From Citromicrobium sp. JLT1363 (GTDB lineage: Bacteria > Pseudomonadota > Alphaproteobacteria > Sphingomonadales > Sphingomonadaceae), in the NCBI RefSeq assembly GCF_000186705.1, contig NZ_AEUE01000008.1:62001-126000 (forward strand): a stretch of DNA of 64,000 nucleotides, in the 5' to 3' direction. Of this stretch, positions 41,687 to 58,547 are shown piece after piece (position 1 is the stretch's first letter; the number at the start of each line of letters is the position of its first letter). Below the pieces are notes generated by a model. That model was given only the letters and a program-made list of their open reading frames with translations, was not told the DNA's origin and did no database searches. A program made the translations under genes and the position numbers.

Positions 41687-42916
41687 TCAGACCGCCTTCA
41701 GCCCCTCGTCCAGCTGCGCGATCAGATCCTCCGCGTCCTCCACCCCGCAGGAATAGCGTAGCAGCGTCTCCGAGATGCCCAGTTCCGCGCGCTGTTCTGC
41801 CGTGCATTCCACATGGCTGGTGACGGAGGGCGGGCCGATCAGCGTGTTGACCGAACCGAGGCTGGCCGCGCGATGGACGTATTTCAGCCCGCCGACAAAA
41901 CGCTTGAGCGCGTCGAAATCGCCATCGACCGAGAAGCTGAGCATGCCGCCGAAACCGGACATCTGACGCTTGGCCACATCGTGCTTGTCGTGGGTTTCGA
42001 GGCCCGGATAGAACACGCTGGCCACCTTGGGGTGCTGGTTCAGGAAGCGGGCGACGGCCAGGCCGGTCTCGTTCTGCTTCTTCACCCTGAGGTCGAGCGT
42101 CTTCATCCCGCGCAGCAGCAGGTAGGCGGAAAAGGCGGACAGCACTGCGCCGCAGATTTCGCGGTGCTCGTACACGGTGCGCACCAGGTCTTCGCGCCCG
42201 ATCAGCACGCCGCCCATCGCATCATCGTGCCCGCCGAGATACTTGGTAGCAGAGTGCAGCACGAGGTCGGCGCCGAATTCCAACGGGCGCTGGTTGATCG
42301 GTGTGGCGAAGGTGTTGTCGACCACCACGATCGCGCCCCGTTTCTTGGCTGCCCGGATCGCCCGGTCGAGATCGATGATCTTGAGCGTCGGGTTGGTCGG
42401 CGTTTCGAGATAGACCAGTTCGCAGCCCTTCGCGATGGCCGCATCGATTGCGTCGGCATCGCTGGTTTCCACCAGATCGACCTCGATCTGCATGCGCGGT
42501 AGCGTATCCATGAACAGCCGGCTTGTGCCGCCGTAGCTATCCTTGATCGACACCACCCGGTCGCCGGGTGAGAGCAGCGAGAGCAGCGTGTTTGAAATTG
42601 CGGCCATCCCGCTGGCGAAGGCGATGGCTTTCTCTCCGCCTTCGAGAATCCGGCACTTCTCCTCGAACACGCCCACCGTCGGATTGGTGTTGCGCGAATA
42701 GATGTAGCCTTCGGCCTGGCCCAGCGCGACGGCGGCCCATTCGTCCATATCCTCGTAGGCGAAGGGTGCGCTTTGCACGATCGGCACCTGCGCTGCGCCG
42801 AAGGCAAGCGGCTTTTCCTCACCCCCCCAGACGGCGATGGTCGAAGGATGCTGGTTGGTGATCGCCATGCGGTCCGCACCGTCCGGCGACGCGTGGGAGG
42901 GCGTGTAGTCGGCCAT
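41687..42916 (-). CDS. PLP-dependent trans-sulfuration enzyme (cystathionine gamma-synthase family)
   Basis: A 409-aa Cys/Met-metabolism PLP enzyme. Lys225 in LHSATKYLGGHDD holds PLP, Asp200 in VVVDNTFATP contacts the ring, and YSRNTNPT is the N-terminal signature. Members of this family include cystathionine gamma-synthase, cystathionine gamma-lyase, O-acetylhomoserine sulfhydrylase and methionine gamma-lyase; the exact one cannot be fixed by eye. It lies six bases after the cyanophycinase fusion gene on the same strand, so it probably shares its transcript. Confidence 0.88.
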   Translation of the reverse strand: MADYTPSHASPDGADRMAITNQHPSTIAVWGGEEKPLAFGAAQVPIVQSAPFAYEDMDEWAAVALGQAEGYIYSRNTNPTVGVFEEKCRILEGGEKAIAFASGMAAISNTLLSLLSPGDRVVSIKDSYGGTSRLFMDTLPRMQIEVDLVETSDADAIDAAIAKGCELVYLETPTNPTLKIIDLDRAIRAAKKRGAIVVVDNTFATPINQRPLEFGADLVLHSATKYLGGHDDAMGGVLIGREDLVRTVYEHREICGAVLSAFSAYLLLRGMKTLDLRVKKQNETGLAVARFLNQHPKVASVFYPGLETHDKHDVAKRQMSGFGGMLSFSVDGDFDALKRFVGGLKYVHRAASLGSVNTLIGPPSVTSHVECTAEQRAELGISETLLRYSCGVEDAEDLIAQLDEGLKAV

Positions 42917-42922
42917 TTTCGT

Positions 42923-44872
42923 TCAGTCCTCGTTGGCCAGCGTTTCGTCGGCGTAAATCGCCTCTTCCGCCGGGTGTTCGCTGCTGGCCGCGCCCCGGTA
43001 CATTCCTTCGGTATTCATCGCGAAGGCGATCCGGCCCATCGCGTCCATTGCGATCAGCCCGCCGTCTCCGCCCAGTGCTCCGATGGAGCCGATGGTGTCG
43101 TCGGCGGCCTGCGCGATGGTCTGGCCGTTCCAGGCGACGCGGTCGCACACCTGCCGCCCGGCGCTTTCGCGGATGAAATATTCGCCCGTGCCGGTGCCGG
43201 AGACCGCGCACTTGCCGTTGGCGGCATAGGTGCCTGCACCGATGATGGGGGAATCGCCGATCCGCCCCCAGCGCTTGCCGGTCAGCCCGCCGGTGGAGGT
43301 GGCGGCCGCAAGGTTGCCGTCCCTGTCCAGCGCCACCGCGCCCACCGTGCCGAAGCGATGCGTCGGGTCGAGCGCGAGCGCGGAAAGGTTGTTCTTGCGC
43401 CACTCCTGGATCTGCTGCCAGCGGCGCTCGGTACGGAAGTAGGCCGGATCCACCTGCTCGATGCCCTGTTCCCGCGCGAACTGGTCCGCTCCTTCGCCCG
43501 ACAGCAGGACATGGCGCGATTTATCCAGCACCGAGCGGGCAAGCGTGATCGGGTGCTTCGTGGTGCTCACACCGGCCACGGCGCCTGCATTCAGCGTGGC
43601 TCCGTCCATGATCGAGGCATCCAGCTGGTTGCGGCCCTCGGCATCGAACACCGCGCCGCGTCCGGCGTTGAACAGCGGATCGTCTTCGAGGATGCGCAGC
43701 GTCGCCTCGACCGCGTCGAGGCTGGTGCCGCCGTTTTCGAGAACTGCGGAGCCCGCCGCCAGTGCCGCCTGCAGGCTTGCGCGGTAGGCGGCTTCCGTCT
43801 CGGGCGTCAGGTCGCCGCGCTCGATCACGCCGGAGCCGCCATGGATGGCCAGCGACCAATCACGGCGCTTGGCTTTCGGTTCTTCCGACAGCTTGCCTTC
43901 GGTCACCCGGATCGTTGTCATGTAGGCTGGTTCCGATACCGTCATGGTGGCCATGTCGAACCGGGTTTCGGGACCGATGGCGATAAGCTGGACGGCATCC
44001 CAATCCAGTGCGCCCGATTCACCGAAGCTCGGCTTCGCCAGAGGCTGGACCAGCCAGGCATTTCCCTCGCTGGTGCTATAGAGTCGTGCGGTGCCGTCGG
44101 CTTCGACGGTCAGCGCCGTATCCTCGTCGATGCCGAGACCGATCGTCTGCTCGCCCTGCGCTGCGCGGGCCTGGGCGAGGAAGGCCACAAGCCGGCCCAG
44201 CCGATTGCGTTCGGTGAAATGGGTGTCGGTGATGATGTTCCCGAGGAAGGGCATCTCCAGGAAGTCACTGACCAGCGTGACCTTCGGGCCCTTTGGATCG
44301 GCGAGGGCTTCGCGCGAGTCGACCGCTTCCTCCGCAAGCGCGCCGTATCCCGTGCCGCCCAGGATCGCGAGCCCTGCGCTGGTGCCGCCGATCGGGCGCC
44401 CCGCCGCGACATGCGCGTTCAACGCATCCGAAACCGGCGTACCCTTCCAGAAGCGGACATATTTCGACTGGTCGCCGCCGGCGATGAAAATGCCGTCTGC
44501 CTGTTCGAGAATTTCCGCGACGCGCGGATCGAACGCGGCCTCGCGATCGGAGAATACGAGCGTCTGCACGGAGGCGAGCCCGCCGATGTGCTCCATCAGC
44601 CACTCGCCATCGCTGCCGTCCTGCGAAGCGCGCAGGATCACCAGATGGCCTTCGCCTGCCTTGCCCGCAAACCAGCGCCAGGCGGGCTCGCTCCAATCCG
44701 ATCCGCCGATCAGCAACAGGCCGGGTTCAGGTGTTTTCGGAGTGGGCGCGGCCAGATCGCCGGTCTCATAGTAGGTGTACCCGTCCCCGGTTTGCACCTT
44801 TGCCTGGGAGGCGCCTGGCAGAAGCAGCGCCAGCGAGGCGAGCGCCACGACAAGGAATGATCTGGCAAGCAT
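42923..44872 (-). CDS. Secreted cyanophycinase / isoaspartyl peptidase fusion
   Basis: A 649-aa protein with a signal peptide (MLARSFLVVALASLALLLPGASQA) and two catalytic parts. Residues about 45-310 form a cyanophycinase-like S51 domain with nucleophile Ser165 in GGTSAGLA and the typical DTHFTERNRLGRL. Residues about 335-649 form a plant-type asparaginase/isoaspartyl peptidase with the autoprocessing Thr509 in HRFGTVGAVAL and the early LAIHGGSGVI. Cyanophycinase cuts cyanophycin to beta-Asp-Arg, and the second domain can split beta-aspartyl dipeptides, so one exported chain could carry out the full breakdown to Asp and Arg. GGAGGG precedes the ATG. It starts a two-gene operon with the PLP enzyme. 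Confidence 0.9.
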   Translation of the reverse strand: MLARSFLVVALASLALLLPGASQAKVQTGDGYTYYETGDLAAPTPKTPEPGLLLIGGSDWSEPAWRWFAGKAGEGHLVILRASQDGSDGEWLMEHIGGLASVQTLVFSDREAAFDPRVAEILEQADGIFIAGGDQSKYVRFWKGTPVSDALNAHVAAGRPIGGTSAGLAILGGTGYGALAEEAVDSREALADPKGPKVTLVSDFLEMPFLGNIITDTHFTERNRLGRLVAFLAQARAAQGEQTIGLGIDEDTALTVEADGTARLYSTSEGNAWLVQPLAKPSFGESGALDWDAVQLIAIGPETRFDMATMTVSEPAYMTTIRVTEGKLSEEPKAKRRDWSLAIHGGSGVIERGDLTPETEAAYRASLQAALAAGSAVLENGGTSLDAVEATLRILEDDPLFNAGRGAVFDAEGRNQLDASIMDGATLNAGAVAGVSTTKHPITLARSVLDKSRHVLLSGEGADQFAREQGIEQVDPAYFRTERRWQQIQEWRKNNLSALALDPTHRFGTVGAVALDRDGNLAAATSTGGLTGKRWGRIGDSPIIGAGTYAANGKCAVSGTGTGEYFIRESAGRQVCDRVAWNGQTIAQAADDTIGSIGALGGDGGLIAMDAMGRIAFAMNTEGMYRGAASSEHPAEEAIYADETLANED

Positions 44873-45062: not shown

Positions 45063-45548
45063 TTGAGGAAAATCGACGCGGCAGACGCGCGGCTGCTGGA
45101 GGCCGTTCAGCAGGATGCCCATCTCACGGCAGAGCAGTTGGGGGCCGCCTGCGGATTGTCGCCCACCGCCGCGCTCAAACGGCTCAAGCGGTTGCGTGCG
45201 GACGGTATCATCGAACGCGAAGCGGCCTTGGTGTCGCCGCGTGCGCTGGGTTACGCCATCATGGCCGTGGTGATGGTGACGCTGGACCGCGAGGATCGCG
45301 GAGTGATCGATCGTTTCAAGCAGGACATCCGCAACACGCCGCAGATCACCAGCGGCTACTACATCACGGGCGATGCGGATTTCATTCTGACGATCGTCGC
45401 GCGCGACATGGACGAGTACGACGACTTCACGCGCGAATTCTTCTACGACCGCCACCCCACCAAGACCTTCAAGACCTGCGTGGTGATGTCGGCGGTGAAG
45501 ACCAACGGTGCGCTGCCCGTTCACGATTTGGCGCAATCTGCAATCTGA
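45063..45548 (+). CDS. Lrp/AsnC-family regulator
   Basis: A 161-aa regulator with an N-terminal helix-turn-helix (DARLLEAVQQDAHLTAEQLGAACGLSPTAALKRLKRLRADG) and a C-terminal RAM ligand domain (AVVMVTLDRED ... GYYITGDADFILTIVARDMDEY). Such proteins sense amino acids. Start choice: TTG at 45063 with GGGAGG just upstream; no in-frame ATG gives a family-like N-terminus. It is divergent from the cyanophycinase fusion and followed by a TonB receptor, so it may control uptake and use of peptides or amino acids at this locus. Confidence 0.88.
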   Translation: MRKIDAADARLLEAVQQDAHLTAEQLGAACGLSPTAALKRLKRLRADGIIEREAALVSPRALGYAIMAVVMVTLDREDRGVIDRFKQDIRNTPQITSGYYITGDADFILTIVARDMDEYDDFTREFFYDRHPTKTFKTCVVMSAVKTNGALPVHDLAQSAI

Positions 45549-45745: not shown

Positions 45746-48604
45746 ATGCGCCGTATCTCAATCGCTGTCGCGCTCGCCAGCACCAGCCTTCTAGCCACCG
45801 CCGCCGCCGCGCAAAACGTGCCTGCCGCCAGCGAGGCGGACCCGAGCGAAGAGGCCGATGAGAATTCTCAGGATACGACGGCCACCGAATCGGACACGAT
45901 AACCGTCGTCGGGTCCCGCATCCCACGGATCGAGCAGGAAGGCCCGGCGCCTGTCGTGACGATCACTTCGGACGATATTCTGGAGCAGGGCTACGCGGAC
46001 GTGCCCGAGATTCTCGCCTCGCTCTCGCAGAATAACGGTGAGACCCAGACCGCGCAGGATTACGGTGCCAACACTTTCACGCCGGGCGCGCAGCAGGTCG
46101 ATCTGCGCGGGCTCGGGCCGAACCACACGCTGGTCCTGGTCAACGGGCGCCGGATCGCCAACTTCCCCATGCCCTATGGCGGCAACAGCAATGTCGCCGA
46201 TATCTCGAGCATCCCGGCAGGTTTCATCGACTCGGTCGAGGTGCTGAGCGGGGCGGCTTCCGCCATCTATGGCTCGGACGCAATCTCCGGTGTGGTCAAC
46301 TTCAAGCTCAACGAGGAAGTCGAATACACCCGGATCGATGCCCGCGTCGGATTGACGGGCCGCGGCGGCGGCGAATCCTACCGGCTGTCCCTGACGACCG
46401 GCTTCGAGACCGACCGGTTCTATACGCTGATAGGGGCCCAATACAGCCACCAGGAGCAGCTGTTCGGTTTCGAGCGGGACATTCAGGATTCCGGTCTGGA
46501 CAACCCCACCTCGGATCTCGCCTATCGCAACTTCCTGCGCACGGATTCCGACGGCTATTACATAGATCCGGGCCAGGCGACGTGCGACTCGCTCTCTTTC
46601 ACCAACCAGGGCTCGACCTACTACGCCAGCCGCGAGGGCTACGGCTTCGAATATCCGAGCTATGCCACCACGCCGGGGTATTTCTGCGGCAGCCAGGAGG
46701 CCTGGGGCTACGGCGCGATCACATCGGGCTGGGACCAGTTCAATGTTTACAGCTCCTCCGGCTACGAGGTGAGCGACAGCGTCGACCTCTTCCTCGACGC
46801 GCAGTTCGGCTACGTCGAACGGCAGGTGCTGAACGGTTTCAAGACCTGGTACTATCAGGCGCCCGACGGGGATGAATCGGGCCTGTTCTACAATCCCGAC
46901 TATATCGACGTCACCAATTCCTACTGGGACGACGGGCTCGATTACTGGCAGCGCATTTTCACCCCGGAAGAAACCGGCGGCTTCGAAAATGCGATGATCA
47001 AGGCCCGTTCCTACACCTTCAATATCACTCCCGGCATCAAGGGGACGTTCGACCCCGGGCTGGGCGAGGAATGGAACTACGAGGTTTACTACAACCACGC
47101 CGAATACCGTTCGCGCATCTCATGGCCCGAGATCGTCATCGACGCGGCCAATGACTTCTTCCTCGGCCAGCCGGTCGACGATCCGACCAACACCAGCGGA
47201 TATCAGCGCTTCGATGCCGATCCTTCGCGGCTGTTCACCGCGCTGACGCCTGCGGAATACGCAAGCATTTCTGCCGATACGGTCTATAATCCCAAGACCT
47301 GGGTCAACAATTTCCAGGCAACCGTGAGCACTGCGGAAATCTTCCGGCTTCCCGCTGGTCCGGTTGGTTTCGCAGCCGTGGCAGAAATCGGCGATGCAGG
47401 GTACGAGATCAATCCCGATCCCAAAGCGCTGACGCAGTATTACGTCGGCATTCAGGATTCCGACGGCGAAGGGAAGCGCGATCACTGGGGTGTGGGCGCG
47501 GAAGTCAGGGTGCCCGTGTTCGATTTCCTCCAGCTGACCGGAGCCGGGCGGTACGACCGGTACAAGTATGCCGACAATGACTTCGGCCAGTTCACCTACA
47601 ACCTTGGCGCAGAACTGCGCCCGACCGATACCCTGCTGCTGCGCGGCGCAATGGGCACCGGTTTCCGCGCGCCGGACCTGCACTACGTCTATCGTGGGCA
47701 GGGCACGGTGAACTCTTCGGGCGCAGATTATTACAATTGCCGTCTCGACGATGCTTCGGCGAGCGCCAACGATTGTATCTATTCCGATTGGTCGAATTTC
47801 GTGGGCCGCAGGGGCGGCAATCCCGACCTGCTGCCCGAAACCGCGGAGTCGATCACCGCGGGCATCGTGTGGGCGCCCAGTTCGCGCTGGCAGTTCTCGG
47901 CCGATTATTTCCGGGTCGAGCTGAACGACGAAGTGCTCAACCTCAGCACCGATCTCCTTCTGCGCGACGAGGCGGCCTGCCGGCTGGGTACGACGTTCGA
48001 TGGCACGTCGGTCGATGTGAATTCGCCGACCTGTCAGGATGCACTGGCGCGGGTGGAGCGGTACGATAGCGGCCCGCTGGCGGGTGACATCAGGCTCATC
48101 GATGTGCTGCCGGTGAACACCGCCCAGCAGGTCACCGACGGGCTCGATTTCTCTGCCGATGGGTGGTTCACCGTGGCCGGGGACTGGGATCTGTCGCTTG
48201 GCGGATCGTTCACCTACGTACTGAACCACACGCTGCTGCAATATCCGGGCGACCCGGTGATCGACAAGTTCGATGTATCCGAGGGTTACGGCGTCGCTCG
48301 CGAGAAGGGCAAGGCATGGGCCACGCTCAGCACGGACGAGTTCAAGATTTCCTTGACCGCGCTTTATACCGGGGAGCTGACCAACTGGAACTGGGATGGG
48401 CGGATCGACAGCAGCGTATGGTACAACCTGTCCACGCAATACTGGGCGACCGAGAACATCCGGCTGAACTTCTGGATCAATAACCTGCTCGATAGCGACC
48501 CGGTGAAGGACCCGACGCACGCCTCTTACCCGTATTACAATAGCTCGTGGTACAACAGCGTGGGTCGGGAGTTCTACTTCTCCGCAACCTTCTGGTTCAA
48601 GTGA
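45746..48604 (+). CDS. TonB-dependent receptor
   Basis: A 952-aa outer-membrane receptor with a signal peptide (RISIAVALASTSLLATAAAA), an acidic linker, a TonB-box-like segment DTITVVGSRI, and the plug domain at about 55-190 (VDLRGLGPNHTLVLVNGRRI, VEVLSGAASAIYGSDAISGVVNF). The large barrel follows, with many aromatic residues, and ends in FYFSATFWFK. The barrel contains Cys pairs in external loops (CDSLSF ... YFCGSQ, YYNCRLD ... NDCIYSD). Ligand unknown; proximity to an exported peptide-degrading fusion and a C69-like hydrolase suggests peptides. GGGGGG precedes the ATG. Confidence 0.93.
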   Translation: MRRISIAVALASTSLLATAAAAQNVPAASEADPSEEADENSQDTTATESDTITVVGSRIPRIEQEGPAPVVTITSDDILEQGYADVPEILASLSQNNGETQTAQDYGANTFTPGAQQVDLRGLGPNHTLVLVNGRRIANFPMPYGGNSNVADISSIPAGFIDSVEVLSGAASAIYGSDAISGVVNFKLNEEVEYTRIDARVGLTGRGGGESYRLSLTTGFETDRFYTLIGAQYSHQEQLFGFERDIQDSGLDNPTSDLAYRNFLRTDSDGYYIDPGQATCDSLSFTNQGSTYYASREGYGFEYPSYATTPGYFCGSQEAWGYGAITSGWDQFNVYSSSGYEVSDSVDLFLDAQFGYVERQVLNGFKTWYYQAPDGDESGLFYNPDYIDVTNSYWDDGLDYWQRIFTPEETGGFENAMIKARSYTFNITPGIKGTFDPGLGEEWNYEVYYNHAEYRSRISWPEIVIDAANDFFLGQPVDDPTNTSGYQRFDADPSRLFTALTPAEYASISADTVYNPKTWVNNFQATVSTAEIFRLPAGPVGFAAVAEIGDAGYEINPDPKALTQYYVGIQDSDGEGKRDHWGVGAEVRVPVFDFLQLTGAGRYDRYKYADNDFGQFTYNLGAELRPTDTLLLRGAMGTGFRAPDLHYVYRGQGTVNSSGADYYNCRLDDASASANDCIYSDWSNFVGRRGGNPDLLPETAESITAGIVWAPSSRWQFSADYFRVELNDEVLNLSTDLLLRDEAACRLGTTFDGTSVDVNSPTCQDALARVERYDSGPLAGDIRLIDVLPVNTAQQVTDGLDFSADGWFTVAGDWDLSLGGSFTYVLNHTLLQYPGDPVIDKFDVSEGYGVAREKGKAWATLSTDEFKISLTALYTGELTNWNWDGRIDSSVWYNLSTQYWATENIRLNFWINNLLDSDPVKDPTHASYPYYNSSWYNSVGREFYFSATFWFK

Positions 48605-48665: not shown

Positions 48666-48699
48666 AAGAGGGGCTCCCGATTATGAAGGAGCCCCTCTT
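48666..48699 (+). promoter_or_regulatory. 12-bp hairpin holding the ribosome site of the C69-like gene
   Basis: AAGAGGGGCTCC (48666-48677) pairs perfectly with GGAGCCCCTCTT (48688-48699), loop of ten bases. The 3' arm includes most of the AAGGAG ribosome site for GTG 48701, and the loop includes the ATG at 48683. It lies 61 bases after the TonB receptor stop, so it may end that transcript partly and limit translation of the next gene. Confidence 0.65.
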
Positions 48700-48700
48700 C

Positions 48701-50230
48701 GTGTCCTCCCTGCTGCGCGCTGCTGGCGCCGTAATCGCCTGCGCCGCGCTGACCTTCACCACGATAGCCCAAGCCAGCTATGCCTATTATGTCGGCAGGG
48801 ACCTGACCAAAGACGGCAGCGTGATGCTGGGCGGCACGGGCGAGGAGGTCTCGAGCCACTGGCTGGAAATCGTCCCGGCGCAGGACCACCCGGCAGACGC
48901 GACGATCACTGTGGGCGTCACGCAGGACGCCGTGATCCCGGGCGAACTGATCGAGATACCGCAGGTGGCGCACACGTTCCGCTACATGCAGATGGCCTAC
49001 ACCGATTTCGAAGGCTTTCCGCCGCCGCTGACCAATGGCGGTGTCAACGAACACCAGGTGGCGGTGCGCGACGTGTGGGCACCCAGCCGGCAGGAACTGG
49101 TCGACATGACCCCGCGCCCGCAGCGCGGCCTGCAATATTCCGATCTCGCCCGCATCGTGATGGAGCGTGCCCGCACCGCGCGTGAAGGGGTGGAGATCAT
49201 CGGCGATCTGATCGCGCAGCACGGGTTCGCCACCTATGGCGGCAACACCCATCTGATTGCCGATCCGGACGAAGGCTGGGTCGTGTGGGAATTCGCCGGT
49301 GGGCAGGGTCTATGGGTGGCCGAGCGGCTGGGCTCGGATGATGTCCGCGTGCTCTACCCCGGCGGGATCGGCGAGATACCGACCGATCTTGAGAATGATC
49401 CCGATTACCTCGCGTCGGACAACTTCATTGCCTTCGCCGTCGAACAGGGCTGGTATGACCCCGCTTCGGGCAAGCCGTTCAACGTACAGCACGTCTATGG
49501 CGACCAGAGTATCCGCGACTACCGCGATCCGGGCATCAAGTTGATGTCGCCCGCCGCAATGGAAGCTGCCACGCGCGCGATGGCCCCGGTAAGCGAGGCC
49601 GACCTGATGGAGCGCGTACGCGACCCGCGCGTGGTCGACGACGACAGCGGCTACGGACAAGTGGTCAGCCTTCGTTCCCACCTTTCGGACCCGGACCTGA
49701 TTCGCGTGTGGAATGCGCCGACAGGATCGGTCGCCGCGCCGTTCAACGTCTGGTGGCTCGGTGTGCAGCACGTGCCGATGGAGTATGCCCAGCACCGCTA
49801 CCTGACCAAGGATTCGGCTTCGACCTTCCTCAACCCCGATTACCAGATGCAGGAGGCGACCCGCTTCGCCGGACGCACGTTCAAGCGGGTGATGTACTAC
49901 GCCTGCTCCGACCCGAAACGCCTGCTGCCGCCCGTCACCGACATGCTCAGCGCCTTCGAGGCGGAGACGATGGCCGATCTGGACTGGGTGGAGCGCAGCG
50001 CGTTGACGCTGATCGCGCAGGGCGACCGCGAGGCTGCACACGAGTTGCTGACCCACTATGCGGGCAACCGCGCGCTGGAGGCCCTCACCATGGGAGAGAC
50101 GATGGCCGAGGCGCTGGATGCCTATACAAGGCTCATCCCCGGCCGCACCGCTCCCGAGGGAAGCGAGATCAATACTTTCGATCCCACGGTGAACTGCCTG
50201 GCCGATGGCGACCCGGACGTGCCCGAATAG
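48701..50230 (+). CDS. C69-family-like hydrolase with Ser at the nucleophile position
   Basis: A 509-aa exported protein related to peptidase family C69 (Ntn-type dipeptidases). Matching blocks include GRDLTKDGSVMLGGTGEE after the signal peptide, YGGNTHLIADPDEGWVVWEFAGG in the middle, and NVWWLGVQHVP. Family members use an N-terminal Cys exposed by processing. Here signal cleavage after AQA would expose Ser26 (SYAYYVG), so Ser may act instead, or the protein may be inactive. Start choice: GTG 48701 has AAGGAG at good spacing, whereas ATG 48683 lies in the loop of a hairpin without a ribosome site. Placed after a TonB receptor. Confidence 0.82.
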   Translation: MSSLLRAAGAVIACAALTFTTIAQASYAYYVGRDLTKDGSVMLGGTGEEVSSHWLEIVPAQDHPADATITVGVTQDAVIPGELIEIPQVAHTFRYMQMAYTDFEGFPPPLTNGGVNEHQVAVRDVWAPSRQELVDMTPRPQRGLQYSDLARIVMERARTAREGVEIIGDLIAQHGFATYGGNTHLIADPDEGWVVWEFAGGQGLWVAERLGSDDVRVLYPGGIGEIPTDLENDPDYLASDNFIAFAVEQGWYDPASGKPFNVQHVYGDQSIRDYRDPGIKLMSPAAMEAATRAMAPVSEADLMERVRDPRVVDDDSGYGQVVSLRSHLSDPDLIRVWNAPTGSVAAPFNVWWLGVQHVPMEYAQHRYLTKDSASTFLNPDYQMQEATRFAGRTFKRVMYYACSDPKRLLPPVTDMLSAFEAETMADLDWVERSALTLIAQGDREAAHELLTHYAGNRALEALTMGETMAEALDAYTRLIPGRTAPEGSEINTFDPTVNCLADGDPDVPE

Positions 50231-51366: not shown

Positions 51367-51897
51367 TTGGCACACTCCGGCGATCCTCACGACGGACTAG
51401 AGGCGGTTTTCCTGGCAAACAGGGAAACACTGCTCCGCTTTCTCGTCGCGCGCGGGGCGGGCGACAATGCCGAGGACATATTGCAGGATGTCTGGCTGAG
51501 GATTTCGCGGGGGAAGGCCGGGCCGATAGCGGCGCCGCTCGCCTATCTCTATCGCGCGGCCAACGCGGCGATGATCGACCGCTATCGCTCCGCAAGGCAG
51601 GCGGAATTGCGCGATGCCGCGTGGAGCGAGGGACACGGCGGCGCGACCATCGGCGTCTCCGACAGTCCATCGGCCGAACGGGTGGTTGCCGGCAGGCAGC
51701 TTGCGGCACGCGTCGAAGAAGCGCTTGCCCCGTTGCCGGAGCGGGCGGTGGCGGTGTTTCGCCGCAGCCGCATCGACGGCGTGACCCAGCGCGTGATCGC
51801 CGGGGAATTCGGCGTGAGCATCAGCACTGTCGAGAGCGATTTGCGCCTTGTCTATCGCGCTCTGGCCGAATTGCGGGAGCGGCTGGATGAGGTATGA
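51367..51897 (+). CDS. FecI-type ECF sigma factor
   Basis: A 176-aa sigma-70 family protein with region 2 (ETLLRFLVARGAGDNAEDILQDVWLRI) and region 4 (LPERAVAVFRRSRIDGVTQRVIAGEFGVSISTVESDLRLVYRAL). It precedes a FecR-type sensor and an STN-type TonB receptor, the standard cell-surface signalling set, and should turn on their transcription when the receptor is loaded. No ATG exists in frame near the start; TTG 51367 is the first usable codon after the upstream stop at 51328. The ribosome site is weak. Confidence 0.9.
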   Translation: MAHSGDPHDGLEAVFLANRETLLRFLVARGAGDNAEDILQDVWLRISRGKAGPIAAPLAYLYRAANAAMIDRYRSARQAELRDAAWSEGHGGATIGVSDSPSAERVVAGRQLAARVEEALAPLPERAVAVFRRSRIDGVTQRVIAGEFGVSISTVESDLRLVYRALAELRERLDEV

Positions 51898-51935
51898 TGG
51901 CCAGGACTCCGTCATGTTGCCAGGAGCATTCATGA

Positions 51936-52856
51936 ATGGCGGTTGATCAGCGAACCCTGGATGAAGCCGCGATGTGGGCGGTACGAACGTCGGAGCCGGA
52001 CTTCGCGGACTGGCCCGCGTTTACCGACTGGCTGGAGGCCTCGCCCGCACACGCCGAGGCTTACGACCGCGCGATGATCGCGGCGGAGGACGGGGCGCGG
52101 GCGCTCGACTCGATCCCTGCGAACGATCCCGAATGGTCGGAGGAGGAAGAGGAAAGCTCGCCGCGCCGCTGGCTCGCGCCCGCGCTTGCCGCGTGTCTCG
52201 CAATCCTCGCCGCGCTATGGCTATGGCCCGCCGGGGATGCCGGGATGACCTACAGCACCGCTCCGGGCGAGACGCGCGAGATCGCGCTGGAGGATGGCAG
52301 CACTGTCTTGCTGGCGGGAGATACCGAAATCGTGATCGATGGCAACCGCCAGGCGCGCCTGAACAGCGGCCGCGCCCTGTTCGAGATCCGGCACGACGAG
52401 GGCGAACCCTTCCGTCTCGCGGTCGGCGATGCGCAGCTCGTCGATGCGGGGACCGTCTTTGAGGTTGCGATCCGCGACGCCGCGGTCGCAGTGGGAGTCG
52501 CCGAAGGAGCGGTGATCTACAACCCCGGCGGCCCCGCCGCGCGCATCGACCCGGGCGAGGTCCTGCATTTCGATCGTGGGGATGGGGGCTACCGTATCGA
52601 AACCGTGCCCCTGGAGCAGGTCGGCGAGTGGCGGGAAGGGCGCCTTACCTTCCGCGATGCGCCGCTGGCCGAGGTGGCGAGCGACCTCTCGCGGGTGACG
52701 GGCATTGCCTACCGCACCGCCGATAGGGGACGCGACCGGTCGATTTCGGGGAGCGTTGCGATCGATCCGCTGCGCCGCGACCCGGCGGCGCTCGGCCCGC
52801 TGCTCGGGATCGAGGTCCGGCAGGACGGCGACGTCTGGGTCCTCGACGGAAGCTGA
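51936..52856 (+). CDS. FecR-type anti-sigma / sigma regulator
   Basis: A 306-aa inner-membrane protein. The N-terminal cytosolic part (about 1-75) has the DUF4880 pattern FADWPAFTDWLEASPAHAEAYDRA that grips the sigma factor. One helix at about 79-98 (WLAPALAACLAILAALWLWP) follows, then the periplasmic FecR domain (YSTAPGETREIALEDGSTVLLAGDTEIVI) and a C-terminal STN-like fold (LTFRDAPLAEVASDLSRVTGI). The last part receives the signal from the receptor. AGGAG precedes the ATG. Confidence 0.93.
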   Translation: MAVDQRTLDEAAMWAVRTSEPDFADWPAFTDWLEASPAHAEAYDRAMIAAEDGARALDSIPANDPEWSEEEEESSPRRWLAPALAACLAILAALWLWPAGDAGMTYSTAPGETREIALEDGSTVLLAGDTEIVIDGNRQARLNSGRALFEIRHDEGEPFRLAVGDAQLVDAGTVFEVAIRDAAVAVGVAEGAVIYNPGGPAARIDPGEVLHFDRGDGGYRIETVPLEQVGEWREGRLTFRDAPLAEVASDLSRVTGIAYRTADRGRDRSISGSVAIDPLRRDPAALGPLLGIEVRQDGDVWVLDGS

Positions 52857-52858
52857 CG

Positions 52859-55255
52859 ATGCGCGCGGATACGCTTCTTGTCGCAGCCCCGGTCGCTGCC
52901 CTCGTGGCGAGCGCCGCCTGCCCGGCCAGCGCGCAGGAGCGGCGCATCGATGTGCCCGCCGGGACGGTCGCGGAGTCCGCCATCGCGCTGGCGCGCCAGA
53001 CCGGATCGAGCATCGTCGTCAACGGTTCGGGCCTTTCTTCACGGCGGGTCGCCCGCATTCGCGGGACCATGTCGGTTCAGGCAGCCGTGCAGCGGCTGGC
53101 CCGGGCGGCGGATGCCCGCGCAGTCCGCATCAGTTCGAGCGCGTGGCGGCTCGATCCGCTTCCCGAGCGCGCCGCCCCCGCGCGCCGCACGGCACCTCCC
53201 AAGCGGGTAGAAGCAAGGCCCGTCCCGCCGCCCCCGCCCCCGCCGCCGCCTGCCGCCCCACCGCAGGAAATCGTGGTGACCGCCAGCAAGCGCGAACTGC
53301 CGCTGAAGGACATGCCGGCGCAGGTCGCCATGCTCGAGGGTGAGGAATTGTCGCTGGGCGGCGTGGGAGGGACCGAGAAGATCACCCAGCGCGTTGCCAC
53401 GGTTTCGTCGACCTATCTGGGCAGCGGGCGCAACAAGCTGTTCATCCGGGGCATCGCGGACTCCAGCTTTACCGGGCCCACCCAGGCGACCGTCGGGCAA
53501 TATCTGGGTGATATCAGGCTGAGCTACAACGCGCCCGATCCCGATCTCAGGCTGTCGGATCTGGACCGGGTGGAAGTCCTCGAAGGGCCGCAGGGCACCT
53601 TGTATGGCGCAGGTTCGCTAGGCGGGATCATCAGGCTGGTCCCGAACAGCCCCGACCTGGGCAGCACGTTTGCCACGGGCACGCTGGGCGGTGCGCTGAC
53701 CGAACACGGCGACGCCAGCGGCGATATCGGCCTGGTTGCCAATCTCCCGCTGAAGACGGACAGAACCGCGCTTCGCGTCACCCTCGATGCGGTGAGCGAG
53801 GGTGGCTATATCGACAAGCCCTACCTCGATCGTACCGACGTCAACCGGACCTCGATCCTCTCCGGTCGAGCCATTCTCCGGACACGGCTGGCGCCCGACT
53901 GGACGATGGACCTCATCGGCCTCGGCCAGACCACGCATGCGCGCGACAGCCAGTATGTCACCCGCGACCAGCCCGGCTACGACAGCGCGGCAAGGGTCCG
54001 CGAAGGGTCGGAGGCGGACTATCTGCATGGCCAGCTCGTGATCGACGGTCGCATCGGGACCGTGCGATTGCGCTCGTCCACCGCCATCGCCGGGCAGACC
54101 CTGCAGGAACGATACGACGCCACCACGGATGTCCAGCGCGACCGGGTGTTCGTGCAGCGCAACGAAACCCGCATGATCGCGCATGAAACGCGGCTGTGGC
54201 AGCCGATCGGGAACAGGTTCGGCTGGGTTGCCGGGATGAGTCTGGTGGACAACCGCACCGAGCTCAGCCGAAGCCTTCAGCAGGCGTCCCTGCGCGCTGC
54301 CACGACCGGGGTTCTCAACACCGTGGCCGAAGGAACGATCTACGCGGAAGGGTCGTATCGGTTGCGCGACAATCTCATCGCCACGCTGGGCGCTCGCTAT
54401 TCGCTGGTGCGACTGGGCGGCAGCGCGGAGGATGTGTCTGCCGCGCTGGCGATGGAGCGCGCGGCGGTGACGGCGAAACGCGACCAGTCGGCCTTCCTGC
54501 CGTCTGCGTCGCTCGTCGCCCGGCTTGCACCGGAAACCAGCCTCTATCTGCGCTATCAGGAGGGCTTTCGCCCGGGCGGGCTGGCGATCGAGGGCGATTT
54601 CGTGCGCAGGTTCGATCGCGACGATGCGAAAACATTCGAGGTGGGCGTACGTCACGGGCGGCCGGGCCGCGATTCCTTCGATCTGGCGCTAAACCTGTCC
54701 TATACCAGATGGAACGACATCCAGGCCGATTTCATCGATCTCGCCGGATTGCCCAGCACGGCCAATATCGGCGACGGTCGTGTCTGGACTATCAGCGCGA
54801 GCAGCGGGCTCTACATAACCCCCGATCTTCGCGTGAGCGGCGGGGCCAGCGTCAATCGCAGTTCGATCGACGAGCCGCCCTTCAACCTGATCCTTCTGCT
54901 TGGGCGGACCTCCCACGTGCCCAATATCGCGGAGTTTTCAGGGCGGTTGGGTCTGGAATACTCCCGCCCCATCGGCCCGGGTCTCGATCTCGATGCGCGC
55001 GCGTGGGCCAGCTATATCGGGAAGTCGCGGTTGGGTATCGGCCCCGAACTGGGCGATTTCCAGGGAGACTATCTCGATAGCGGGCTGACCGTCCGGGTAG
55101 GGAACGATCGGATCGGCGGTACGCTTTCGCTCACCAACCTGGCCGACGCGAAGGGCAACCGGTTCGCGCTGGGTACCCCGTTCGCGGTCGTCCGTGCACA
55201 GGAAACCCCGCTGCGTCCGCGCACGATCAGGCTGGGTGTCGACTTCGCATTCTAG
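52859..55255 (+). CDS. TonB-dependent transducer with STN domain
   Basis: A 798-aa FecA-like receptor. After the signal peptide (ending ACPASA) come a secretin/TonB N-terminal signalling domain (about 28-100, IDVPAGTVAESAIALARQTGSSIVV), a proline-rich linker with nine Pro in a row, the TonB box EIVVTASKR, a plug (RNKLFIRGIADSSF ... VEVLEGPQGTLYGAGSLGGIIRL), and a barrel ending in RLGVDFAF. Start two bases after the FecR stop, so coupled. Ligand not readable; FecIR systems often serve iron chelates, but other ligands occur. Confidence 0.93.
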   Translation: MRADTLLVAAPVAALVASAACPASAQERRIDVPAGTVAESAIALARQTGSSIVVNGSGLSSRRVARIRGTMSVQAAVQRLARAADARAVRISSSAWRLDPLPERAAPARRTAPPKRVEARPVPPPPPPPPPAAPPQEIVVTASKRELPLKDMPAQVAMLEGEELSLGGVGGTEKITQRVATVSSTYLGSGRNKLFIRGIADSSFTGPTQATVGQYLGDIRLSYNAPDPDLRLSDLDRVEVLEGPQGTLYGAGSLGGIIRLVPNSPDLGSTFATGTLGGALTEHGDASGDIGLVANLPLKTDRTALRVTLDAVSEGGYIDKPYLDRTDVNRTSILSGRAILRTRLAPDWTMDLIGLGQTTHARDSQYVTRDQPGYDSAARVREGSEADYLHGQLVIDGRIGTVRLRSSTAIAGQTLQERYDATTDVQRDRVFVQRNETRMIAHETRLWQPIGNRFGWVAGMSLVDNRTELSRSLQQASLRAATTGVLNTVAEGTIYAEGSYRLRDNLIATLGARYSLVRLGGSAEDVSAALAMERAAVTAKRDQSAFLPSASLVARLAPETSLYLRYQEGFRPGGLAIEGDFVRRFDRDDAKTFEVGVRHGRPGRDSFDLALNLSYTRWNDIQADFIDLAGLPSTANIGDGRVWTISASSGLYITPDLRVSGGASVNRSSIDEPPFNLILLLGRTSHVPNIAEFSGRLGLEYSRPIGPGLDLDARAWASYIGKSRLGIGPELGDFQGDYLDSGLTVRVGNDRIGGTLSLTNLADAKGNRFALGTPFAVVRAQETPLRPRTIRLGVDFAF

Positions 55256-55315
55256 CGGCAGGGGGCGCCTCAGATTTTTCTCGCCCGGGCCCAAGGGAAG
55301 ATCCGGCTGGCTCCG

Positions 55316-55342
55316 TCCTCCCGTCTGACAACAGACGGAGGA
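55316..55342 (+). promoter_or_regulatory. Hairpin containing the autotransporter ribosome site
   Basis: CCGTCTG (55321-55327) pairs with CAGACGG (55332-55338) around an ACAA loop, and past a bulged C the stem continues 55316-55319 with 55339-55342. The GGAGGA ribosome site (55337-55342) of the gene at 55347 is wholly in the 3' arm. This suggests control of translation or a read-through point after the receptor gene. Confidence 0.55.
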
Positions 55343-55346
55343 ATGC

Positions 55347-58300
55347 ATGTATCGTTATCTTCTGGCCGGAACCGCGCTTGCCGCCCTGGCAGTGCCCGCG
55401 GCGGCCCAGACCACGGTCGATTCTAAGCGTACGCAGCCGGTTCGCACCTCGCAGCTCGACAACGGCGCGGGCGACGATGTCAAGGTGACGAGCAACGGTT
55501 CTATCGAGCTGACGAGCGGTTCGGGCATCGTCATCGACAGCGATCATGACGCGACCAACGAAGGCAATATCCTTGTTTCCAACGCCGATGGCGCGAGCGG
55601 GATCGAGACCACGGGCGACCGCCAGGCGGACATCGTCAACTCCGGCACGATTACTGTCGACGAAACCTATACCCCGGAAGATGTCGACAAGGACGGCGAT
55701 CTCGACGGTCCCTTTGCGGTGGGCACGGACCGCGCAGGCATTCGTGTCCGCGGCGACCTGACCGGCAATATCGTCAATTCCGGCAAGATTACGGTCGAAG
55801 GCAATGACTCGGCCGGCATCACGGTGGCGGGCACCCTCGACGGCAAGTTCGTTCACGACGGCGAAACGAACGTCCTGGGCGACCAGAGCGTGGGCGTGGA
55901 ACTGCACGATGTAACGGGCGACGTCCGGCTTGCCGGTACGGTAACGGCCAAGGGCGAGGACGCCGTTGCAGCACGCTTCGCGGGCGATCTGGACGGCACC
56001 CTGCAGGTGCAGGGCACGATCGCTGCCACCGGCTACCGCTCCACGACGCTGCCTTCCGATACCAGCAAGCTCGATGCCGACGATCTGCTCCAGGGGGGCA
56101 GTGCAATCGTCGTCGAAGGCGACGTCGCCAAGGGCATCCGCTTCGCCGTGCCGCCTGCCGACGCGGACAAGGACGATCCCGACGAGGACAAGGACGGGAT
56201 CGAGGACGCCAAGGAAGGCACCGCGAAGGTCACGTCCTTCGGTGCTGCGCCGGCCGTTGTCATCGGGGCGACCGGCAGGGATATCGCGATCGGTGCGCTT
56301 CCAGCGACAGCCTCCGGCTTCGGCATCATCATCGACGGGTCGATCACCGGCACGGGCGTCTATGCCGGGGTCGATGGAAACGGGATGCTGATCGGCGGGC
56401 GCGGCGGCGACGTTTCGGTTGCCGGGGGCATCGCGATCAACGGGTCCGTGACCGCCGCCTCGAGGGACAGCAATGCCACCGCGCTACGGTTTGGCGCGGG
56501 CGCTACCACCCCCGAACTGCGCAATGCGGGCACCATTTCCGCATCGGGCGGGGCCAGCGATACGACGCAGGCGACCGCGCTGTCGATCGATGCCGGGGCA
56601 AACCTGCCCTATGTCCGCAACAGCGGCAAGATCACCGCGACTGCTCTCAAGGACGCAAGCTCCGCCGTCGCGATCGTGGATCGCAGCGGCACGCTGCAAC
56701 TGGTCGAGAACAGCGGGAGTATCAGCGCCAGCGGCGCGAAGGCCGGCACGGGCCGGAATATCGCGATCGATCTTTCGAGTGTCAGCGCCGGCGCGGTCGT
56801 GCGCCAGACGGTGGTCGGATCGGGAGTGACCGCGCCCTCCATCACGGGCGATATCCTGTTCGGTGGCGGCGCCGACCGGCTCGAACTGCTCGACGGGACT
56901 GCGGCGGGCGACGTATCTTTCGGCGCAGGCGTGGACCGTTTCGTTATGTCCGGCGATGCCCGCTTCTCCGGCAAGGCGAGCTTCGGCGGCCAGGCCGACG
57001 AGCTGATCCTCTCGGGCACGTCGGCCTTCGCGGGCACCGCCGATTTCGCGGGCGGGACCGGTACTCTCACCCTGGGCGACAACGCCCTGTTCAAGGGGCG
57101 TCTCGCCGGTAGCGAGAACGTATCGGTCACGGTCGACGGCGGTACGCTCGATCTGGGCGTGCCGACCACCTTGTCGACCCTTGCGGTGGGGGCGAACGGC
57201 GTCATCGTCGGCACGCTCAGCAAGGACCCGGCTGCGGGCACCGCCATCACCGTGACGGGGAACGCAAGCTTTGCCGAGGGCGCAAAGCTCAAGCTGCGGC
57301 TGACCGACATCGCCCAGGCAGAGGGAACCTACACCGTCATCAGCGCAGGCAGCCTGACCGGCGCAGGAGACCTCGACTCGGACGTTGCGCTCGTGCCGTT
57401 CATGTACGACGCGCTGCTGGCCGTGGATCAGGCCGCCGGGCTGGTGAACGTCGACATCGCTCGCAAGGCGACGGAGGAGCTCGGCCTCAACCGCTCGCAG
57501 GCGAGTGCCTATGATGCGGTGTACGCCGCTCTTGCGGATGACGACGATGTGGCGGGCGTCTTCCTCGGCATCACGGAGAAAAACGCGTTTCGTGCAGCCG
57601 TCGCCCAGACCCTGCCCGATCATGCGGGGGGCGCGTTCGATGGTATCAGCCTCGGCATCCGGACCTTCGCCCGCAGGCTCGCGAACCCCGAAGGGCCGCT
57701 CGAACGCGAGGAAAAGCTGAGCATCCTGTTCGATGCAGCGGCCTGGGATTCGTCCAAGGACGAAGGCGACACCGCGCAATACGATCTCGACGGTCTCGGC
57801 TTTTCGGGCGGTGCCGAGCTTTCGACCGGGGTCGGCACGCTCGGTGCCACGGCCACCTGGCTCTGGAACCGCCACGATACGCTGGCCGAGAACAACATCA
57901 TCTCCAACACCTACGAAGGGGCCCTTTACTGGCGCGGCACATGGGGCGCGCTCTCCGGTTTCGCGCGTGGTTCCTACAGCTTCGCCGACTTCGATGGAGC
58001 GCGCTATTTCTCCGGAGCCAATGGCGAGGAGACGGTCCAGCGCACGATCGACGGCCAGTGGTCGGGCAATGCCACCAGCTTCATCGCGGGTGCCTCGCTT
58101 GAATTGGGATCGCAGTTCTTCTTCGTCCGGCCGTCCGTCTCGCTCGACTATATTCGTCTGAGCGAGGACGGATATGTCGAGACGGGCGGCGAAGCGCTGA
58201 ACCTGACCATCGAGGATCGCACCAGCGACGAAATGGCGATCAATGTTGGCAGCGCGGTCGGGTTCGACCTTCTCGGCATGCGTCGGCGCGACAAGAACTG

Positions 58301-58547
58301 GCTGCGGATCGAAGCGGAAGGCGGCTGGCGCGAAATCCTCTCCGGAGAGCTGGGCGCGACGACAGCCCGGTTCGGCGACGGTGACAGGTTCACGCTGACG
58401 CCCGAGCAGCGCGCCAGCGGGTGGTACGCGGGGCTGCGCGGGTTAGGGGGCACCGCCTTCTATACGATCTCGGGCGAAGTCTCGGCCGAGGAGCGTAACG
58501 AGCAGATCGGTTATGCGCTGCGAGCCTCCATCAGTTTCGCGATGTAG
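55347..58547 (+). CDS. Autotransporter with acidic, repeat-rich passenger
   Basis: A 1066-aa type V secreted protein. The signal peptide (RYLLAGTALAALAVPAAA) is followed by a beta-helix-like passenger (about 22-740) with many short turns such as GNIVNSGKITVEG, SGITVAGTLDG and LVENSGSISASG. Two acidic stretches, VDKDGDLDGP and a longer ADKDDPDEDKDGIEDA block, look like calcium-binding loops. The C-terminal autotransporter barrel (about 775-1066) is preceded by a linker helix (AAVAQTLPDHAGGAFDGISLGIRTFARRL) and ends in RASISFAM. Its position behind a FecI-FecR-receptor set suggests signal-controlled display on the surface. No protease or lipase motif was seen. Confidence 0.9.
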   Translation: MYRYLLAGTALAALAVPAAAQTTVDSKRTQPVRTSQLDNGAGDDVKVTSNGSIELTSGSGIVIDSDHDATNEGNILVSNADGASGIETTGDRQADIVNSGTITVDETYTPEDVDKDGDLDGPFAVGTDRAGIRVRGDLTGNIVNSGKITVEGNDSAGITVAGTLDGKFVHDGETNVLGDQSVGVELHDVTGDVRLAGTVTAKGEDAVAARFAGDLDGTLQVQGTIAATGYRSTTLPSDTSKLDADDLLQGGSAIVVEGDVAKGIRFAVPPADADKDDPDEDKDGIEDAKEGTAKVTSFGAAPAVVIGATGRDIAIGALPATASGFGIIIDGSITGTGVYAGVDGNGMLIGGRGGDVSVAGGIAINGSVTAASRDSNATALRFGAGATTPELRNAGTISASGGASDTTQATALSIDAGANLPYVRNSGKITATALKDASSAVAIVDRSGTLQLVENSGSISASGAKAGTGRNIAIDLSSVSAGAVVRQTVVGSGVTAPSITGDILFGGGADRLELLDGTAAGDVSFGAGVDRFVMSGDARFSGKASFGGQADELILSGTSAFAGTADFAGGTGTLTLGDNALFKGRLAGSENVSVTVDGGTLDLGVPTTLSTLAVGANGVIVGTLSKDPAAGTAITVTGNASFAEGAKLKLRLTDIAQAEGTYTVISAGSLTGAGDLDSDVALVPFMYDALLAVDQAAGLVNVDIARKATEELGLNRSQASAYDAVYAALADDDDVAGVFLGITEKNAFRAAVAQTLPDHAGGAFDGISLGIRTFARRLANPEGPLEREEKLSILFDAAAWDSSKDEGDTAQYDLDGLGFSGGAELSTGVGTLGATATWLWNRHDTLAENNIISNTYEGALYWRGTWGALSGFARGSYSFADFDGARYFSGANGEETVQRTIDGQWSGNATSFIAGASLELGSQFFFVRPSVSLDYIRLSEDGYVETGGEALNLTIEDRTSDEMAINVGSAVGFDLLGMRRRDKNWLRIEAEGGWREILSGELGATTARFGDGDRFTLTPEQRASGWYAGLRGLGGTAFYTISGEVSAEERNEQIGYALRASISFAM

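Follow-up and report, generated by a model that had tools for sequence, protein, structure and literature searches.

The window analysed here, a 64,000-nucleotide stretch of the genome of the marine bacterium Citromicrobium sp. JLT1363, contains a gene for a single protein, predicted to be exported, in which a cyanophycinase-like domain of family S51 is joined to an isoaspartyl peptidase domain. The gene, its parts and its neighbours are as follows (window coordinates; residue numbers are those of the fused protein).

41687-42916, minus strand: cystathionine gamma-synthase family PLP enzyme, the next gene downstream (NF006097, 617.6 bits against a cut-off of 600)
42923-44872, minus strand: fused protein of 649 amino acids, predicted to be exported, S51 cyanophycinase-like plus Asparaginase_2 isoaspartyl peptidase
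44801-44872, minus strand: signal peptide, residues 1-24, MLARSFLVVALASLALLLPGASQA, judged by eye and by hydrophobicity
43883-44791, minus strand: S51 cyanophycinase-like domain, residues 28-330 (alignment to 3en0 and AlphaFold2 model), with key residues Q135, S165, D216, T217, H218, R222, R224, R227 and E250 (3en0 alignment)
43859-43882, minus strand: interdomain linker, about residues 331-338 (AlphaFold2)
43349-43858, minus strand: isoaspartyl peptidase, alpha part, residues 339-508
42923-43348, minus strand: isoaspartyl peptidase, beta part, from the nucleophile Thr509 (predicted self-cleavage G508/T509), with residues T527, R537, D540, T560 and G561
45063-45548, plus strand: divergent Lrp/AsnC-family regulator, start codon uncertain
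45746-48604, plus strand: divergent TonB-dependent receptor, a partner conserved beside fused and split forms alike
48683-50230, plus strand: C69-family peptidase with a signal-like start

As the initial annotation had proposed, the open reading frame is single: it begins with ATG, contains no internal stop and encodes, in order, the signal peptide, the S51 domain, a short linker and the Asparaginase_2 domain. The latter was matched by Pfam at residues 339-635 (360.7 bits; cut-off 27) and Peptidase_S51 at residues 117-260 (40.8 bits; cut-off 23.9). In phmmer searches against solved structures, residues 341-633 matched the Escherichia coli isoaspartyl peptidase EcAIII (2zak, E 8e-79) and residues 44-265 the cyanophycinase CphB (3en0, E 1.3e-13). 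The AlphaFold2 model of the full chain (pLDDT 80, pTM 0.52), from which we claim nothing about the relative placing of the domains, has strands at residues 317-324 and 327-330 and the first strand of the peptidase domain at 340-346. These strands put the linker at about 331-339, and not at about 310-335 where it was originally placed. In 21 fusions, the stretch between Gly326, which is invariant in the S51 domain, and the first His that is invariant in the peptidase is 12-23 residues long. Because the best 50 fold matches listed for the full-length model all covered the peptidase half, the S51 domain was also modelled alone, and this structure prediction, which had been suggested as a check, gave a CphB-like fold (pLDDT 89.6, pTM 0.90).

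The fusion is not an accident of assembly or a frameshift artefact, as 20 full-length homologous fusions, each in one open frame, come from other public genomes. Both halves appear to be under purifying selection: in five pairs, dN/dS is 0.15-0.22 in the S51 domain and 0.03-0.24 in the peptidase, although some of these pairs are close to saturation at synonymous sites. A 695-codon open frame also lies antisense to the fusion (42773-44860, plus strand) and is probably a by-product of codon use at high G+C.

Ser165 within GGTSAG, the segment DTHFTERNRLGRL at residues 216-228 and Thr509 within HRFGTVGAV, all named in the initial annotation, are present. In the 3en0 alignment (chain numbering minus 20 gives CphB numbering), the nine key residues of the S51 half correspond, in the order listed above, to CphB Q101, S132, D172, Q173, H174, R178, R180, R183 and E201. 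Eight of these nine, which are given as critical for CphB in PMC3235067, are identical in the fusion; the ninth is Thr, which according to the same paper also replaces Gln173 in the extracellular CphE of Pseudomonas alcaligenes. Thus, the Ser-His-Glu triad of cyanophycinase (S132, H174 and E201 of 3en0) is represented by S165, H218 and E250, and the substrate-pocket residues, which needed to be verified, are likewise present as counterparts of Q101, D172, Q/T173, R178, R180 and R183. Across 30 sequences of the fused or split type (that of the window plus those of 20 and nine further loci), the Gln, Ser, Asp and His and the three Arg are invariant (30/30), T217 is kept in 27 (Ser in three), and E250 in 28, with Gln in two Rhodanobacter fusions. 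The subfamily also has an invariant Tyr and Trp after GGDQ (Y138 and W142) that are absent from CphB in the alignment.

The S51 half is nevertheless not filed as a cyanophycinase, because its score of about 104-105.8 bits falls short of the TIGR02069 equivalog cut-off of 126.6; five relatives of the subfamily, two split and three fused, score 85-109 bits. In a Foldseek search, the top structural match by E-value was pseudo-CphB (7uqv, E 4e-17, TM 0.67/0.79), level with CphB itself (7uqw, E 1e-16, TM 0.70/0.81), and enzymes of the peptidase E type ranked after both (TM 0.43-0.51/0.58-0.66). The aligned catalytic and pocket residues are retained in 7uqv, which its authors reportedly found to be inactive on cyanophycin, so that conserved residues are no proof of cyanophycin activity. 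The S51 half is likely to work like a cyanophycinase.

For the peptidase half, the phmmer alignments show that in solved relatives the beta chain starts at the position equivalent to Thr509, and self-cleavage before this residue is therefore expected; the alignment predicts both a Gly-Thr cleavage site and a Thr nucleophile. T509, T527, R537, D540, T560 and G561, whose roles we take to be those of their EcAIII counterparts, are invariant in all 30 fused or split sequences. The domain scores 295.2 bits against the beta-aspartyl-peptidase equivalog NF007589/PRK10226, below the cut-off of 567.

By eye, the signal peptide is of the Sec type; it contains no Cys and therefore no lipobox, and Ala24 is invariant across 21 aligned fusions. 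The protein had been described as secreted. Export is predicted from this signal peptide, but secretion beyond the cell is not, and the periplasm is the likelier location because a TonB receptor adjoins the gene. In split pairs, both proteins have signal-like starts in all seven pairs read by eye (L133-L135, L137-L140). A signal-like start is also seen in one stand-alone peptidase read individually (L034) and, by a crude score, in 52 of 60 stand-alone relatives of the peptidase half.

To survey the neighbourhood, we compiled 102 loci (20 + 9 + 73; some organisms are represented twice), comprising 66 fused, 22 split and 14 solo ones, and recorded a TonB receptor where it is divergent and lies within 4.5 kb of the S51 gene. 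Such a receptor adjoins 63 of the 66 fused loci (absent from L026 and L185; L189 lies where its contig ends), 21 of the 22 split loci (the sole miss being a contig end) and seven of the 14 solo loci (one miss is near a contig end), counts that are not independent as the loci are related. The regulators vary: the Lrp/AsnC regulator occurs mostly in sphingomonad-type loci, an ECF sigma factor with FecR mostly in Rhodanobacter and Lysobacteraceae-type fusions, and neither in many split loci. The one ECF/FecR-type receptor checked (L028) carries an STN domain. No recurring inner-membrane permease was recognised among the annotated neighbours. The PLP enzyme and the C69 peptidase were considered as core components and rejected, since only in the nearest of the 102 loci (L014-L016, L223, L224) do they lie next to the fusion. 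The PLP enzyme gene (41687-42916) starts six bases downstream of the fusion, and a five-gene unit that includes it is kept in Citromicrobium, Erythrobacter and Euryhalocaulis loci.

The search for the fusion in other genomes, which the initial annotation had called for, returned at least 577 matches, of which the best 80 were kept. In twenty of these (L014-L033) the match spans both domains, and each of the 20 is a single-frame fusion; the other 60 match essentially over the peptidase part only. The closest named relative among the matches listed belongs to Citromicrobium sp. UBA3494 (96%). No S51 gene was found by tblastn (two S51 queries, E 1e-6) near the 60 stand-alone peptidase loci (L034-L093), several of which lie on short contigs.

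We then considered 695 genomes from two orders, that of the window (396) and that of genome G517 (299), which the named relatives suggest to be Sphingomonadales and Xanthomonadales. A profile of the S51 domain (A2) matched at least 13 of the 396 and at least 65 of the 299 genomes at E 1e-30 or better, counts that may be low because only some candidates per genome were scored. Among the matches listed in a whole-protein search, 43 of these 78 genomes, among which is that of the window, carry the fused form (a single stop-free match spanning the two domains), 21 the split form (two genes side by side on the same strand) and 14 neither; the fused form accounts for eight of the 13 genomes in the window's order and 35 of the 65 in the other, and five of the 14 genomes in which the S51 gene has no adjacent peptidase are among those 13. 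The states of separately examined loci agree with this count. S51 relatives without an adjacent peptidase were also seen at L142, L143 and the 14 solo loci (L209-L222). A laxer profile search (1e-8), the limit of which takes in other S51 proteins, matched nine of 385 genomes at the level of the class and 25 of 398 at that of the phylum. A unique fusion can thus be rejected, and the initial remark that a secreted fusion is rarer is to be qualified: among the matches listed, the fused form is present in 43 of the 695 genomes of the two orders. The fusion is real, conserved and recurrent, and it lies in a TonB-linked locus.

Domain trees were built from 81 loci (61 fused, 20 split), leaving out seven near-copies and the 14 solo loci, with L014 standing in for the window; L021, which carries a Pseudomonadales MAG label, was assigned to the alphaproteobacterial rows because its peptidase lies there. 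The two trees conflict. In the S51 tree, 27 fusions of gammaproteobacterial type group with Sphingopyxis-type alphaproteobacterial fusions, whereas in the peptidase tree the same 27 group with other genes of gammaproteobacterial type. AU tests rejected the S51 grouping when it was imposed on the peptidase data (a log-likelihood deficit of 233.6, p 3e-6), and they rejected a single gammaproteobacterial group on the S51 data (a deficit of 115.0, p 9e-8); these p values are optimistic, as the groups were named after the trees had been seen and long branches are present. In the tree of the TonB receptor, built from 75 of the 81 loci, the alpha- and gammaproteobacterial rows fall apart with a support of 97. 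Because the domain trees conflict, the halves appear to have been exchanged or re-joined at least once; on the simplest reading, the S51 half would have moved between lineages and then joined a resident peptidase. The peptidase tree implies six changes between the fused and split states (at least two forced by the starred branches) and the S51 tree three (at least one so forced); fusion and fission cannot be told apart by the trees.

The initial annotation saw no cyanophycin synthetase, and this holds genome-wide: none of 13 matches to CphA1, which presumably represent Mur ligases and ATP-grasp enzymes, exceeds the cut-off, the best scoring 83.8 against 850 bits. In the control, matches were obtained in all 14 genomes, and in one case the cut-off was exceeded. 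Recycling of cytosolic cyanophycin was accordingly rejected. The same genome does carry a second, canonical-looking cyanophycin-use locus (L094, contig C26:355000-374000, 4247-10742) comprising a TonB receptor, a DcuC-family transporter, an S51 cyanophycinase and IaaA. This S51 protein scores 187-188 bits, above the TIGR02069 cut-off, and by eye has a signal-like start; the IaaA has no signal peptide by eye. The plan of this locus would be to cleave outside, import the dipeptide and split it inside, whereas with the fusion both steps would take place outside the inner membrane. The TonB receptors of the two loci are only 24% identical. Given the canonical locus, the fusion is either redundant with it or complementary to it, and may serve another isopeptide. 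Contig C17 carries the gene of a third peptidase, which stands alone and has a signal-like start.

Compared with known enzymes, the fusion shares the S51 fold, the catalytic triad and the substrate-pocket residues with CphB (3en0, 7uqw) and CphE and, like CphE, has an export signal and a Thr beside the His. Unlike both, it is only 22-23% identical over the fold match, scores below the TIGR02069 cut-off and has its S51 half joined to the next enzyme of the pathway. With IaaA/EcAIII (2zak, 46% identity in the fold match) it shares the Ntn-hydrolase fold, the Thr nucleophile and the self-cleavage site, but differs in its signal peptide and N-terminal S51 domain and in scoring below the PRK10226 cut-off.

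According to PMC10206079, genes for cyanophycinase and isoaspartyl dipeptidase cluster in 45 of the 52 genomes that possess the two but lack CphA1, and the single IaaA and single IadA from these clusters that were assayed proved promiscuous; the text of that paper contains none of the words "fusion", "fused" and "secreted". Like the utilization loci described there, the fusion locus would bring the two steps together, its S51 half scoring below the equivalog cut-off, in a genome with no synthetase over the cut-off, and has an adjoining transporter gene. It differs from them in being one chain, in that both steps would proceed outside the inner membrane, and in that the transporter gene is a TonB receptor and not an amino-acid permease. 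A TonB receptor adjoining a cyanophycinase gene in Citromicrobium sp. JLT1363 is mentioned in PMC3400609, the text of which does not contain "asparaginase"; the neighbourhood is of the same type as that of the fusion, and either of the two loci may be meant. No account of the fusion or its locus was found in the open-access literature, which was the scope of the search as opposed to subscription journals; the architecture may already be listed in domain databases.

The presence of an exported two-enzyme fusion beside an outer-membrane import gene suggests that scavenged storage polymers, cyanophycin being one example, are probably broken down to free amino acids before they reach the cytoplasm. 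The TonB receptor would carry polymer fragments or oligomers into the periplasm, where the S51 domain, by a Ser-His-Glu mechanism suggested by its conserved residues, would release beta-aspartyl dipeptides from a cyanophycin-type polymer with an aspartate backbone. The C-terminal domain, going by its family, would self-cleave before Thr509 and then split the dipeptide into aspartate and the side amino acid, so that free amino acids and not dipeptides would cross the inner membrane. The fusion would hold the intermediate between neighbouring active sites and require one export signal instead of two. We regard the two-step periplasmic mechanism as well founded by inference, and a TonB-fed periplasmic two-step scavenging module for isopeptides, with a cyanophycin-type substrate, as the probable role of the locus. 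The use of foreign polymer, suggested at the outset, fits the conserved pairing with the TonB receptor. Cyanophycin itself, the substrate initially named, is the most likely one, with about an even chance, a related beta-aspartyl isopeptide being the alternative: the active-site residues are intact, but the S51 score is below the TIGR02069 cut-off, pseudo-CphB matches as well as CphB by E-value, and the genome has a second, canonical locus. The favoured reading is also weakened by the subfamily's own Y138 and W142, by the Gln at E250 in two Rhodanobacter fusions, and by the 14 of 78 genomes in which no peptidase adjoins the S51 gene, with the TonB receptor at only seven of those 14 loci.

A tentative alternative is that the fusion acts in the same way on another beta-aspartyl isopeptide or polymer and that the second locus handles cyanophycin. 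This would agree with the canonical, TIGR02069-passing cyanophycinase on contig C26, from which the subfamily of the fusion is separated by a long branch, with the low TIGR02069 scores of the subfamily wherever tested and its own invariant Tyr and Trp after GGDQ, and with the low identity of the two TonB receptors; against it, nearly all residues critical in CphB are kept in the fusion. In addition, two relatives (G002 and G008) contain the fusion and no second S51 match with P0001, which means that the fusion is not necessarily an addition to a canonical locus. The bolder form of this idea, a repeatedly fused and half-swapped TonB-fed periplasmic machine of alpha- and gammaproteobacteria that digests a beta-aspartyl isopeptide polymer other than cyanophycin, while another locus of the cell deals with ordinary cyanophycin, we consider rather unlikely.

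General periplasmic clean-up of isoaspartyl-damaged peptides, with the TonB pairing reflecting general peptide uptake, appears improbable: the promiscuity of the IaaA and IadA described in PMC10206079 and the frequency of exported-looking stand-alone peptidases (the 52 of 60 above) are in its favour, but it leaves unexplained why a CphB-type domain is fused or adjacent in 64 of the 78 genomes, which were themselves preselected for that domain. That catalysis matters only in the peptidase half, with the S51 half acting as a binding or pseudo-enzyme domain as reported for pseudo-CphB, is likewise improbable, for despite the top rank of 7uqv by E-value and the Gln at E250 in two fusions, the Ser, His, Asp, Gln and three Arg are invariant in all 30 sequences and S51 dN/dS is 0.15-0.22.

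In the favoured reading of a two-step scavenging module, the fusion puts both steps of cyanophycin-type degradation in one exported chain beside a dedicated outer-membrane receptor, and offers a testable explanation of how proteobacteria that lack a cyanophycin synthetase might draw nitrogen and carbon from cyanophycin or a relative. Comparing the fused, split and half-swapped versions is a natural way to ask what advantage fusion brings and, if the reading is true, a single protein that turns cyanophycin into free amino acids would serve biotechnology.

Further along the window, 51367-58547 encodes an ECF sigma factor, FecR, another TonB receptor and a protein of 1066 residues that has a signal-like start, a repeat-like middle and a beta-barrel-like C-terminal part (autotransporter-like by eye), for which no Pfam family scored over its cut-off. 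In the C69-family peptidase beside the first receptor, the likely signal cut AQA/S would leave an N-terminal Ser at the position where, we assume, C69 enzymes have an N-terminal Cys. The stretch AQASYAYYVG is common to this peptidase and those of L014, L015 and L016.
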